Part shown: one piece after another, positions 8,176-54,110 of the stretch
Numbering within the stretch: position 1 is the stretch's first letter
How the letters are laid out: each line of letters starts with the position of its first letter
IMG/VR virus record: IMGVR_UViG_3300012924_000012
Span: 1-54,110 of that record
Direction: 5' to 3' (one strand)
DNA: 54,110 nt
DNA from: a virus
Notes under the pieces: model-generated
The model's input: only the letters and a program-made list of their open reading frames with translations
What the model was told of the DNA's origin: nothing
The model's database searches: none
Translations under genes and position numbers: made by a program

Positions 8176-8464
8176 GCTCTACCGTAGCGGGTTCATCTTT
8201 CATTTTATGCAACAGGATACCTTGAGTGCGTGGAATACCCGCAAGAGTGCGCAATTCGTCCAGATTCCAGCCTGTGATGTCATGGGCATGGATCAGCAAC
8301 GAAGCGGTGATGACCGTTTGCTTGTTACGCATGCGACAGATGGCCGCTGCACCGATACCGAGCGCACGGGATAGCGAGGCATCGCTACGCAAATGGAACT
8401 TGTCCATGATGGCATCAAAGAGTTCGCCGGGTTTGTAATTTTCATTTTTTAGCAATTCAATCAT
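8150..8464 (-). CDS. Helix-turn-helix protein
   Basis: This 104-residue protein has ASLSRALGIGAAAICRMRNKQTVI (about residues 30-53), a clear Cro/XRE-like helix-turn-helix, followed by ITGWNLDELRTLAGI. I chose ATG 8464 because AAGGAGG in the end of the P-like gene gives ideal spacing, while the ATG at 8470 is too close. It may be a regulator, or a ninX-type accessory protein. Confidence 0.7.
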   Translation of the reverse strand: MIELLKNENYKPGELFDAIMDKFHLRSDASLSRALGIGAAAICRMRNKQTVITASLLIHAHDITGWNLDELRTLAGIPRTQGILLHKMKDEPATVEHDTSPCST

Positions 8465-9173
8465 AGTCATCCTCCTTAGAAATTTTCAGCGCATCCCGCG
8501 CAAATTGGACTTGTATTAATGTTAATTTTTTATCACCTTCTTTTTGTTGCTGTAAAATCCTTCTAGCCCATTCTTTCCCATCAATGATTTTGGGCTTTAC
8601 TCCACTGACAAATTTCAATTCTTCAAGCATCTTGGTAGCCTGCTCCCTCGATAATTTGTCTTTCCCCGGCGCTGGTAGTGCGAACATGGGTGCCGGGATT
8701 TCATCCCATGAATTTTTAGCAAGTTCGGCGGCTAATGCGGATTCCCAACGCTGCCGGATTTGCGAATACGTCTGATTTTTGAGTTCAAACGCAGAAACGC
8801 GCACAGATGCCCAAAAAATCGCCGGATGACTCCATGTACCAACCTCCCCTTGTTCGCGGCTCCTAGACCCCTCCAGAGCCTCGTAATAGGCTGTTAGCGG
8901 GTTCACCTCTGGCCTACATCCCTTCAAAAACTCAGGTTGGCTTGGTGGACGGTCAAAATTGTTCATTTTGGCAACGCCTCGTCGCCATTCCAACTCGGTC
9001 AAGCCGTACAACGCTTTTCCCCAATCGCGTTTTAGCTTGTCCGGGTCTACCACCGACCACTTATCGGCAAACTGCTTGCCCCACTTTGACAACATTTGGT
9101 CGAACAGCCATTCAACGAGCTTTTGCGGTAAAGCATTCTTTGGCCATGGTTCAGATGTCGATAACGTCATCAT
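8457..9173 (-). CDS. Replication protein P-like (helicase loader)
   Basis: This 238-residue protein carries the block KRDWGKALYGLTELEWRRGV, then RPPSQPEFLKGCRP, the conserved pattern of lambda-P-type proteins. These load host DnaB helicase at the phage origin. No helicase or primase gene is present in the genome, which fits borrowing the host's. It overlaps the O-like gene's end by 23 bases and has GGGGAGG before its start; ATG 9173 or 9170 is possible. Confidence 0.75.
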   Translation of the reverse strand: MMTLSTSEPWPKNALPQKLVEWLFDQMLSKWGKQFADKWSVVDPDKLKRDWGKALYGLTELEWRRGVAKMNNFDRPPSQPEFLKGCRPEVNPLTAYYEALEGSRSREQGEVGTWSHPAIFWASVRVSAFELKNQTYSQIRQRWESALAAELAKNSWDEIPAPMFALPAPGKDKLSREQATKMLEELKFVSGVKPKIIDGKEWARRILQQQKEGDKKLTLIQVQFARDALKISKEDDYD

Positions 9174-9957
9174 CGCCTCCCCTGCCTGTCAACCTGTTCA
9201 CGAAGTCCTGGCTTCCGTTGCGCTTTGCCGTCCAGTCGTTCATGAAATGCTTGTCCGGCCCTAAAAACGTTGCTGCTTGCTTGATGTATTGCGGTTCAAC
9301 ATTCATTGTTTCGCAATATCTTCGATATCGATCTGCTCCCCTAAGCATGTCTTCAATCGCAACATCAGTATTTAGCCTTGCATCCCAAGCCTTTTGTGCC
9401 TGGGTCTTGTTCGCCCCTGGCCTTTTGGGGTACAGGTTCCAGAATTTTTCAAAATCGGCGTCAGCCGTAATTTTTCGGGTTGGCGCTTTTTCAGTAATCA
9501 GGAATCTGGAATCAGGAATCAGTAAATCAGGAATCAATGAATCAGAGCGTTTTACCACCGGTATTTCACCGTGTTCTAACGGTGTTTTAACCGTTAAAAT
9601 TTTATCACCCTTACGAATCAAGGACTTATCAGAGCATGCCGGTAAAATGCTTGCTTTTTCGGTATGGTGTGGCTTCTGATGTTTCAAAAAATTAATTACT
9701 TGGATCAGTTCAAAATCTTGTTCTTTATACCTTTTTATAAAACCCATTCGTTGTAATTCATATAACATTATATCAACTTCGTTGTCATTCCTATAAGGAA
9801 ATGTCTCAACTTTTATACGAAGTGGCCTATCTTCTAACCGTCCTTCACGGTCTGCAAGGCACCAAAGAGACATAAATAAGATCGTCAAAAGCGGGTCTGC
9901 CTCCCCAAGAATTTCATTCATGAAAAGGCTTGGTTTGATATTCCTAGCGCGTGGCAT
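9151..9957 (-). CDS. Replication initiator (lambda-O-like, winged-helix)
   Basis: This 268-residue protein starts MPRARNIKPSLFMNEILGEADPL. It has the LWCLADREGRLEDRP block seen in a widespread phage replication protein with a winged-helix N-terminal domain (about residues 1-110). A C-terminal DnaT/DnaD-like region follows (WNLYPKRPGANKTQAQKAW). The middle is a low-complexity linker whose DNA carries iterons and an 11-bp-phased motif array, as in lambda, where the origin lies inside O. It is followed directly by the P-like gene. Confidence 0.8.
   Translation of the reverse strand: MPRARNIKPSLFMNEILGEADPLLTILFMSLWCLADREGRLEDRPLRIKVETFPYRNDNEVDIMLYELQRMGFIKRYKEQDFELIQVINFLKHQKPHHTEKASILPACSDKSLIRKGDKILTVKTPLEHGEIPVVKRSDSLIPDLLIPDSRFLITEKAPTRKITADADFEKFWNLYPKRPGANKTQAQKAWDARLNTDVAIEDMLRGADRYRRYCETMNVEPQYIKQAATFLGPDKHFMNDWTAKRNGSQDFVNRLTGRGGDDDVIDI
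9496..9545. repeat. Iterons, candidate replication origin
   Basis: Three exact copies of AATCAGGAATC start at 9496, 9510 and 9525, and a half copy (AATCAG) starts at 9540. The spacing is 14, 15 and 15 bp. They lie inside the O-like gene's linker and encode a repetitive peptide of no obvious structure, so the repeat is probably kept for DNA binding. Confidence 0.8.
9556..9599. repeat. Four 11-bp-phased CACCGT/AACCGTT motifs (array A)
   Basis: Related 7-mers start at 9556 (CACCGGT), 9567 (CACCGTG), 9578 (AACGGTG) and 9589 (AACCGTT), exactly 11 bp apart. The last two form a palindrome, TAACGGT-gtttta-ACCGTTA (9577-9596). Eleven is not a multiple of three, so a protein repeat cannot explain it. 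The array follows the iterons and leads into AT-rich DNA. Confidence 0.75.
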
Positions 9958-45467: not shown

Positions 45468-45686
45468 TTAATATTGATCTGCGCAACGTTTCAGAACTGA
45501 ATTTGTGTATGCATCTGGATCAGATTTCAATACCTTAGTGTGTGACAAGACAGAATGATTTTTCTTCATCTTTTTCCGCTTCTCAATCTGAGTATGGCAA
45601 TTTTCACAGAGCGGCTTACCGCTTTGTTTCTTCGGTCCATCGACGGTAGCCGTCGGTCTCAAGCAAGAGGAACACGTAATTTTCAT
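45468..45686 (-). CDS. Small zinc-finger protein beside the 11-bp repeat array
   Basis: This 72-residue protein has C-x2-C (CSSCLRPTA) and C-x2-C (CENCHTQIEKR), 21 residues apart, and is strongly basic. It is likely a DNA- or RNA-binding zinc ribbon. Its ATG (45686) directly adjoins the four 11-bp-phased AACCGT repeats, so it may be controlled by, or may bind, that array. Confidence 0.65.
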   Translation of the reverse strand: MKITCSSCLRPTATVDGPKKQSGKPLCENCHTQIEKRKKMKKNHSVLSHTKVLKSDPDAYTNSVLKRCADQY

Positions 45687-45730
45687 AACCGTTCTTTAAC
45701 CGTTAAATAACCGTGAACTAACCGTTATAT
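45687..45730. repeat. Four 11-bp-phased AACCGTT repeats (array B)
   Basis: AACCGTT or AACCGTG starts at 45687, 45698, 45709 and 45720, exactly 11 bp apart, with AT-rich 4-base spacers. The motif and period are the same as array A at 9556-9599 inside the replication gene. It lies between a membrane-protein gene and the zinc-finger gene and would place protein on one face of the helix. Confidence 0.9.
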
Positions 45731-49179: not shown

Positions 49180-50073
49180 TTAATCCCCACAAAAACACTC
49201 AATGCCTTCATCCTGGCCATCAAACATGTCTACCTGGGCAATCGCGTAATCATGCATCTGTTGGTAGGAAGGACGGTCCGAGCGGAACCTAGCGCCACTA
49301 GGCTTTGAAGACAAACCCATCGACTCCTGTTTCGCCCACCATATCGCCCGCGAAGGCTTCTGTTTAATCAAACCAAGAATCCGATTCGCACCTTTTAAAA
49401 AGCAAAGATCACAATTCCCGGCAGGCGTTGTGCCATCAACGTTTTCCAACTCAAGATCAAACGGCTGATTGCGCCAGAAATCCCCAACCATCGTCCTAGT
49501 AACACCCGATTCCGCTAACGGAATAATCAACGTTTCCTTGGTAGTCTCCGGGGAAGGCCGAGCGCGTATCTTTGCAATCCTTCGTGGCTCATCAGCCCTG
49601 ATCCCGACCATCTGGTCCCAACCATCTTCCTTCCACCCCAAAGACTTCAAATGCTTATGCATCGCCCGTATCTTCAGTTCCACAGTACAAAACCGTGTCA
49701 CCGGATTAGGCAAGTATTGCCGCTTCCTGATGATCGCTTCCAACGGTTCACCATGTCGGCTTGCCGTCTCAAAGTTCACCACCGCATAACCCTTCTCATC
49801 ATCCCTGTATTCAACCCACACAATCGGTACACCCCACCTTGTCTCTATTTCATGGACAAAGCGCAATGTCTCCTCCATCTCCTTACCAGTGTTCGCAAAA
49901 CACACCACAACACCTTCAGGAAGCCCACTATTCGCCTCTAGGACTCGCCACAACATATAGGCCGATGTCCGACCACCAGAAACACTTAAACAAGTCTGTG
50001 AATCGATCTTAAAAGGATCACGCATAAAGTCACCAAGGTATAACGTAGCATTGCCAATTATCATAGGCTCCAT
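49180..50073 (-). CDS. PP-loop (PAPS-reductase-like) protein
   Basis: This 297-residue protein has the PP-loop SVSGGRTSAYM (30-40), which binds ATP pyrophosphate, VVVCFANTGKEMEETLRFV, and an RFCTVELK block typical of phage PAPS-reductase/sulfurtransferase-like proteins. Four late cysteines (CDLC, CFC) could hold a metal. It starts at ATG 50073, behind AAGGGG and its own promoter. The substrate is unknown; similar phage genes lie beside DNA-modification genes, as here. Confidence 0.8.
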   Translation of the reverse strand: MEPMIIGNATLYLGDFMRDPFKIDSQTCLSVSGGRTSAYMLWRVLEANSGLPEGVVVCFANTGKEMEETLRFVHEIETRWGVPIVWVEYRDDEKGYAVVNFETASRHGEPLEAIIRKRQYLPNPVTRFCTVELKIRAMHKHLKSLGWKEDGWDQMVGIRADEPRRIAKIRARPSPETTKETLIIPLAESGVTRTMVGDFWRNQPFDLELENVDGTTPAGNCDLCFLKGANRILGLIKQKPSRAIWWAKQESMGLSSKPSGARFRSDRPSYQQMHDYAIAQVDMFDGQDEGIECFCGD

Positions 50074-50092
50074 AACATCCCCTTTGAATGCA

Positions 50093-50121
50093 TGTATATC
50101 TTGCATCACCGGGCGAGTCAA
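50093..50121 (-). promoter_or_regulatory. Leftward promoter with ATGCAAG in the spacer
   Basis: Minus strand: -35 TTGACT (50116-50121), 17 bp, -10 TATACA (50093-50098), followed by TGCAT. ATGCAAG (CTTGCAT at 50100-50106 on plus) is in the spacer. The -35 lies in the last codons of the methyltransferase gene. Confidence 0.85.
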
Positions 50122-50876
50122 TAGCTTTTGTAGGCTTCTATACGCTCTTGTGCAATCCTGAAATATTCTGTATCTAGCTCAAAACCGATGAAGTTACGAC
50201 CAGTATTCAGGCATGCCACACCAGTGGTTCCACTGCCCATGCAGTTATCCAGTACCGTATCGCCCTCGTTCGTGTAGGTACGGATCAGGTACTCCATCAG
50301 GGCAACTGGCTTTTGGGTTGGGTGCAACCCTGCTTCCTTTTTATTGTCACCCGGTATCTGGATTATTGTGCACGGATTATGGCGGCCATCATTCACTGTC
50401 ATCCTGTCATCTTTTTCATAACCGTATTCGGTATGCTTTCCGTGCCCATTTGTATTCGTTGACCGGTACGGCTTTCCAGCTCTGTATTGCTTGTTGTAGG
50501 TTGGCAGAGATCGGTAGAAAACACATACATCCTCGTGGCGCTTCATCGGCATACGGTTGGCGTTTAGCGATCCGGTGTATTTGTTCACCTTGTCCCACAC
50601 CCAGTTGTAGCGAAAGTCTTTGAAATTTGATGCGATAAGGGCGCTGGTGAACGGCTGCGATGCCGTCAGTACAATGGCTGCGTTTCTTTTCGCTATACGC
50701 CGGTACTGCACCCAAAGCGGGTCGAATGGAATCACCGAATCCCACGCGCACGCCGTAATCCCATACGGCATATCGCACAGAATCATGTCAACACTCGCGT
50801 CAGGAATACCTTTCATTAACTCAAGACAATCACCGCAACGTAAATCTAATTGTATTTTATCGTTGCTAAAAATCAT
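50118..50876 (-). CDS. DNA adenine/cytosine-N4 methyltransferase
   Basis: This 252-residue protein has catalytic motif IV as DMPY (35-38), a variant of D/N-PP-Y, LHPTQKP (the motif after the target domain), and DNCMGSGTTGVACL (FxGxG-like SAM site) near residue 215, giving the beta-type order for N6-adenine or N4-cytosine enzymes. There is no partner nuclease. It may protect phage DNA from host restriction or regulate genes. Start ATG 50876. Confidence 0.85.
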   Translation of the reverse strand: MIFSNDKIQLDLRCGDCLELMKGIPDASVDMILCDMPYGITACAWDSVIPFDPLWVQYRRIAKRNAAIVLTASQPFTSALIASNFKDFRYNWVWDKVNKYTGSLNANRMPMKRHEDVCVFYRSLPTYNKQYRAGKPYRSTNTNGHGKHTEYGYEKDDRMTVNDGRHNPCTIIQIPGDNKKEAGLHPTQKPVALMEYLIRTYTNEGDTVLDNCMGSGTTGVACLNTGRNFIGFELDTEYFRIAQERIEAYKSY

Positions 50877-51244: not shown

Positions 51245-51622
51245 GATCGCCCTTTCCTGGAGCCTCTATTTTGTTGCCATTGAATATCGGGCTATAGGGG
51301 GAGTCCCTACCAATACAATCATGTATTGTACCCAAACCCGCATGTAGACTCACTCTCAAGCAATTCCGTAGCAATACCGTAGCAAAATGCTCGATATCGG
51401 CTTACTTGGCTCTACTCGGCGGAAAGCCTGCTTTTCCGATTCTGGCGGTCTAAACCCGAATATTTTGAGCCTTTTTTGTTATATTGATATCGTATATTGA
51501 TAATATGTATTTACCGGTTTATACTTGGGTTTTGAGGCACGTTTTACCATGGCGTGAAGGCGATTGACGCCCACATTTGCCTACTGCCTGATCCATCATC
51601 CTAATCGAGGAAAGTCCTTCCA
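51245..51622. other. Intergenic control region before the rightward operon
   Basis: There is no gene here. It contains the palindrome TACAAT-catgt-ATTGTA near 51325-51341. Two GTAGCA copies at 51368 and 51379 (TGCTAC on the other strand, 11 bp apart) match the motif repeated before the integrase. A likely rightward promoter TTGTTA-17-GATAAT lies near 51476-51504, within two ATATTGATA direct repeats. Confidence 0.45.
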
Positions 51623-53620: not shown

Positions 53621-54072
53621 AAATCAAAACACACGTAATCCTTGGTGGCTCGCTAGATGGTCCCCTTGGAACCAAGCTTAAAGAGCAATACGGCACATCA
53701 CAAAAAGAAGTCTGCATCGCTCTTTACAAAGCCATCGTCGGCACGAAGGAAGTCTTCTGTTGTTGGGCCGGTGGCACGATCAATCGAGAGACCAATGAAC
53801 CTATGCTGACTCTTGTAGGTGCCGCAAGCGTTGAATCTCTTGCAGCACTCCCCGGGGAACCTTACGATTTAGTTATCCAAGAGGTCCGCAAGGGTAAGCG
53901 CCCTATACAGGACAAGATCATTGAATCAATCCTTGCTGCACCGGAAGGTGCGCGTATCTGCTTTGTTGGTGATCTTGCTGGCGAACTCGATGGCGAAATG
54001 AGCAAGGCTTTTAACCTCTGCGGCGAGCCGATCATCTTGCCGGGTAGTTCTTTTGCCGAGGAGACCGAATGA
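53617..54072 (+). CDS. Unknown alpha/beta protein (complete copy)
   Basis: This 151-residue protein starts with an ATGA overlap. It looks like an alpha/beta fold (HVILGGSLDGPLGTKLKEQYG, VFCCWAGGTINRETNEPMLTLV, ARICFVGDLAGELDGEM). Its last 28 codons appear again at the start of the window because the contig is circular. No family recognised. Confidence 0.65.
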   Translation: MKIKTHVILGGSLDGPLGTKLKEQYGTSQKEVCIALYKAIVGTKEVFCCWAGGTINRETNEPMLTLVGAASVESLAALPGEPYDLVIQEVRKGKRPIQDKIIESILAAPEGARICFVGDLAGELDGEMSKAFNLCGEPIILPGSSFAEETE

Positions 54073-54110
54073 ACCATTTGGAACTTGTCCGCAAGCGTCA
54101 GGCCGAACCC
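53988..54110. repeat. Terminal direct repeat, copy 2 (circular overlap)
   Basis: This is identical to 1-123. From 54069 it holds the first 14 codons of the YkgJ-like gene that is complete at 82-684. Confidence 0.95.

Follow-up and report, generated by a model that had tools for sequence, protein, structure and literature searches.

The window analysed here, an entire virus record of 54,110 bp, carries four phased 11-bp units within the gene of a RepO-like replication initiator. We consider, at a probability of roughly 0.84, that these units are the iteron set of a phage replication origin that lies inside the gene of the initiator reading it, as in lambda O. The window as a whole is a probable case of a lambda-like origin with a new 11-bp iteron class, an unusual second array and a link between specificity and a single residue. 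The features concerned are listed in Table 1.

Table 1. Positions of the replication genes and repeat arrays in the window.
Feature	Position	Strand	Basis or context
RepO-like replication initiator, 268 aa	9151..9957	-	PHROG 16167, E=1.7e-51
P-like helicase loader, partner gene downstream within the replication module	8457..9173	-	phrog_109, E=1.5e-12
TGATTCC repeats, 7/8-bp (15-bp), GGAATCA on + strand; proposed unwinding region	9491..9545	-	TRF
Proposed iterons, four wTAAC[C/G]GTTAA-type units; class A array as in relatives	9554..9597	+	Repeat, simulations, relatives' profile
Second array, four near-perfect 11-bp units	45685..45728	+	In the gap separating two small genes of the minus strand, adjoining the start codon of the downstream gene
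Cys-rich (zinc-ribbon-like) ORF, 72 aa, ATG abutting the 45.7-kb array	45468..45686	-	

A phased array in the initiator gene

The four units read ACCACCGGTAT TTCACCGTGTT CTAACGGTGTT TTAACCGTTAA and are directly repeated 11-bp near-palindromes with a period of exactly 11; their cores start at 9556, 9567, 9578 and 9589, as the original prediction had stated. With the second locus (45.6-45.9 kb) masked, this array is the top period-11 match on either strand of the window (19/21 for three units and 23/28 for four), and not one of 300 Markov simulations at each of orders 1, 2 and 3 matched it. The count of chance occurrences at 11-bp spacing, proposed earlier as a check, leaves only one such array outside 45.7 kb. 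Loose period-11 pairs of the motif number 15 in the window, against 3.1 +/- 1.9 in dinucleotide shuffles. A second 11-bp tandem, 2.5 copies of AGCAATACCGT, was found by TRF at 51359-51385, and PAPS reductase-like and DNA methyltransferase-like genes occupy 49180-50876 on the minus strand. Cumulative GC skew, lowest at 51.7 kb, is not informative.

The initiator also matches PHROG 12556 and 270, which are replication-initiation families. In its AlphaFold model the N-terminal blocks reach a pLDDT of about 90 and the winged helix is confident; a disordered linker (residues 115-163) then leads to a helical C-terminal part. Foldseek gives weak matches (E 0.03 and weaker), the best of which are to winged-helix proteins, among them TubR, BlaI and MecI. 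The N-terminal winged helix ends in KHQKPHHTE, with T as residue 99, and the linker region is encoded by the 11-bp array together with the TGATTCC repeats. Family match, N-terminal winged helix, linker repeats and adjacent loader gene are all as in RepO/O-like initiators with the origin in the gene; the 18-19-bp inverted-repeat iterons of the lambda type are absent, the units here being of 11 bp. The linker repeats are probably binding sites of the initiator.

Phased arrays among related initiators

Three exact copies of AACCGT at period 11 occur in 96 IMG/VR contigs, where a rough estimate of chance gives about one. Many of the ORFs that hold them match RepO-type PHROG replication-initiation families, and the arrays within these ORFs lie mostly around residues 105-240. 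In other RepO genes the arrays are distributed over the three codon frames as 10/7/11; since all frames are used, the constraint acts on the DNA. Within the window, the coding strand of the linker reads ILTVKTPLEHGEIPVVKRSDSLIPDLLIPDS at the array, so that the codon frame changes from one unit to the next. These results support the earlier view that a DNA signal is embedded in coding sequence.

We also analysed 137 non-redundant relatives of the initiator, chosen by protein alone. At period 11, three copies of AACSGT are present in the linker of 30 of the 137; each of the other periods between 7 and 19 gives 0-2, and scrambled motifs at period 11 were found in 0-4 of the same relatives. Moreover, lag-11 self-repeats occur in 46/137 linkers versus 2/137 N-terminal halves. 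Relatives without AACSGT often hold other 11-mers at the same place, chiefly of the AAGCAC and AAGCC(T)AGG types, and in some class-A relatives the array is located in the N-terminal coding part, not in the linker. Among whole records, 18 of 26 relatives have an AACSGT array, usually at one place, and a reversed control pattern gave 0. The original prediction had held that a scan finding many phased sets would count against it: many do exist across viruses, but usually at one place per genome checked and mostly in the RepO-type initiator gene. In the open-licence papers searched, we found neither this class of 11-bp arrays nor the link to residue 99 presented below.

Several individual arrays differ in position. 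One initiator gene (L125) has two AACSGT arrays, at about +183 and +346, one of them inside the part coding for the DNA-binding domain; arrays near +183 are also present in L122 (same contig as L068), L206 and L218. In five further phage contigs (L040, L041, L056, L025 and L063) phased AACCGT arrays mostly have no overlapping long ORF, and that of L063 consists of about 10 perfect 11-mers.

Residue 99 and the class of 11-mers

The class of 11-mer tracks residue 99 of the initiator, which belongs to the KHQxPHx-[99]-E motif closing the winged-helix domain. When only the sequence downstream of this motif is counted as linker, proteins with T or S at residue 99 have 34 AACSGT and 0 AAGCAC arrays, and those with K have 3 and 27, respectively. 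R99 goes with a third class, AAGCCT (2 cases), and the N99 group is mostly unclassified, without a clear 11-mer; a motif class could be assigned in only 70/147 genes. The association has a Fisher p=5e-16, a value that ignores shared ancestry, and no other N-terminal column is associated as strongly as residue 99 (z=24). A motif-free k-mer test agrees: ACCGTT 17 vs 0 in T/S99, AGCACC 15 vs 1 in K99 and CCTAGG 3 vs 0 in R99. The window conforms to this pattern, combining T99 with an AACSGT array. On the tree only one well-supported independent pair is available (eight when all branches are taken), too few to correct the association for ancestry; none of the sampled pairs goes in the opposite direction.

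Because the 11-mer class follows residue 99, the N-terminal domain of the initiator is most likely the reader of the 11-mers. N-terminal nearest neighbours predict the motif class in 56/70 cases and C-terminal ones in 45/70, and six class-A proteins with a class-B N-terminal neighbour are T/S99 all the same. A host factor or the C-terminal domain as the reader is disfavoured in the window's family, as the motif follows the N-terminal domain better (discordant cases 17 vs 6, p=0.035, hand count).

The second array at 45.7 kb

The second array reads ATAACCGTTCT TTAACCGTTAA ATAACCGTGAA CTAACCGTTAT, and its units are better than those at 9.56 kb. Both arrays contain TTAACCGTTAA, a full 11-bp near-palindrome. 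They are separated by 36.1 kb directly and by 18 kb round a 54.1-kb circle, and a 123-bp direct terminal repeat (1-123 and 53988-54110) is consistent with a circular or complete genome; the shared motif and the distance round the circle agree with the original prediction.

A profile was built from the relatives only, with the window excluded (consensus about wTAAC[C/G]GTTAA). Its best match in the window is 45.7 kb, at 52 bits, and 9.55 kb ranks next with 38 bits; no third site is among the best ten matches listed. As the profile ranks the two arrays at the top, the initiator probably binds both. The earlier suggestion of one factor for both places thus appears likely, and since the motif follows a residue of the DNA-binding domain, that factor can be named as the RepO-like protein itself.

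For the role of the second array, we slightly favour an initiator operator or titration site (a transcription roadblock, autoregulation or an incA-like iteron sink) rather than an origin, which is compatible with the reading of the 9.56-kb array as iterons. The array takes up the gap separating two co-directional small genes, adjoins a start codon, is free of coding constraint and matches the profile better than the origin copy does. Outside the initiator gene such arrays are rare, with two loci in 830 kb of class A/B relatives: one in L013 (+6.6 kb) and one in L136, where a comparable AACSGT array is located 84-45 bp before the initiator start and suggests autoregulation. There is no TGATTCC/[AG]ATCA array near 45.7 kb, and a role in regulation or in titration of the initiator would fit the site better than that of an origin. 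Against it, a promoter and terminator scan beside the array gave matches at chance level only, and the array is not conserved elsewhere: phages sharing the neighbouring DUF7694 gene have no array there, though most of them are also without this initiator. No relatives of the 72-aa Cys-rich ORF were found in a search.

The TGATTCC repeats and remaining alternatives

The TGATTCC repeats form a more regular tandem array than the 11-mers according to TRF, and coincide with the densest [AG]ATCA bin on the plus strand of the window. At least three copies of TGATTC are present in 70/147 initiator relatives, including both main 11-mer classes, and a lag-15 self-repeat of at least 17/22 is found in 42/137 of the relatives' linkers. 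The TGATTCC array is most likely the element common to the 11-mer classes and the unwinding region: the 11-mers track residue 99, whereas TGATTC is found across classes, which points to the former as iterons. We therefore revise the earlier statement that the phased motif lies right beside the iterons, since the 11-mers are most likely the iterons themselves. The single-strand motif of RctB in its unwinding region is 5'-[G/A]ATCA (PMC10797057), and the GGAATCA strand of the TGATTCC repeats resembles it, a likeness we take as a lead only.

RepO genes of another N-terminal type (sets A6 and A7, L279-L438) were picked by N-terminal protein sequence, with the Pfam domain HTH_36 for part of them. 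At least two AACC[GA]T boxes 10-12 bp apart are present in 39/43 of A7 and 25/53 of A6, with 0-2 for scrambled motifs or other spacings. The boxes, AACC[GA]T(C/A)A, typically stand right after the last variable iteron (e.g. in L359 at +362 of the initiator gene) and form a conserved origin element. Here the boxes are constant and the iterons variable, whereas the window's family shows the opposite pattern, so the likeness of the hexamers may be coincidental.

The roles of the two repeats could also be exchanged, with the TGATTCC repeats as the initiator-bound iterons and with another factor reading the 11-mers, which would then be an accessory or unwinding element. The greater regularity and the wide occurrence of TGATTCC would agree with this, as would the boxes of the HTH_36-type group, whose place behind the variable iterons is that expected of an unwinding element. 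We regard it as unlikely, since in the window's family it is the 11-mers that change with residue 99 while TGATTCC spans the classes, as expected of binding sites and a shared unwinding element, respectively.

Slightly less likely still is a second replication origin at 45.7 kb, or a loop partner of the first, as the original prediction had proposed. The better fit of that array to the common profile would be in its favour, but the lack of unwinding-type repeats nearby makes a second origin improbable, and it was rejected; the rarity of arrays outside the initiator gene (one of the two loci being just upstream of the initiator start) and the phages sharing the DUF7694 gene also speak against it. 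Finally, a chance array or a protein-level repeat is very improbable in spite of a linker peptide, LTVKxP, that recurs among relatives: the simulations reject chance, the use of all three frames in RepO genes rejects a codon repeat, 11 is not a multiple of the codon, successive units encode different peptides and only period 11 is enriched for the motif.

Proposed model

In the model that we prefer, the initiators would use their N-terminal winged helices to bind the four near-palindromic 11-mers and, standing one turn apart on the same face of the helix, would form an O-some-like complex. This complex may open the adjacent TGATTCC/GGAATCA repeats, after which the P-like loader would deliver DnaB. 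The same initiator would also bind the stronger array at 45.7 kb, which is most likely a site of regulation or titration rather than an origin. A wider proposal, to which we give somewhat less than even odds, is that the choice of 11-bp iteron across a large family of phage initiators is determined by a one-residue code (KHQxPHx-[T/S, K, R or N]-E), and that here, through the distant high-affinity array, the initiator gauges its own level or ties replication to a small-gene operon. If this is right, sequence data could serve to locate the origins of numerous unnamed phages and prophages and to predict the specificity of their initiators, and residue swaps could show how phage initiators change their origin specificity.

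Comparison with known systems

The Pseudomonas phages JBD44, vB_PaS_IME307, vB_Pae_U8 and Aurca01 encode initiators 36-48% identical to that of the window, and share with it the N-terminal HQxPHx-[99]-E and TGATTC(C/T) repeats in the linker. Like the window, vB_Pae_U8 combines T99 with TAACCGT-type units. Unlike it, JBD44 and IME307 have R99 and CCAAGG/CCTAGG-type repeats, and Aurca01 has N99. No distant second array was seen in these four phages, for which the initiator region alone was covered.

In iteron plasmids and RctB systems, remote or inhibitory sets of sites are known. The window resembles iteron plasmids and Vibrio cholerae chromosome 2 (RctB) in having phased initiator sites and a separate motif in the putative unwinding region. 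It differs from them in that its array is inside the gene and that any handcuffing or inhibition would be hypothetical; the likeness is one of the layout of sites.

In lambda O/ori-lambda and the Stx phages, the origin is inside the initiator gene, with iterons beside an unwinding tract and a P-type loader downstream (PMC5043065, PMC7466680). The lambda iterons are 18-19-bp inverted repeats and not 11-bp phased units, no AACSGT array was seen in the lambda origin stretch, and the window protein matches other PHROGs than lambda. The arrangement is nevertheless that of lambda O/ori-lambda: the array of the window lies inside the initiator gene, next to the proposed unwinding repeats and with a P-like loader gene downstream.
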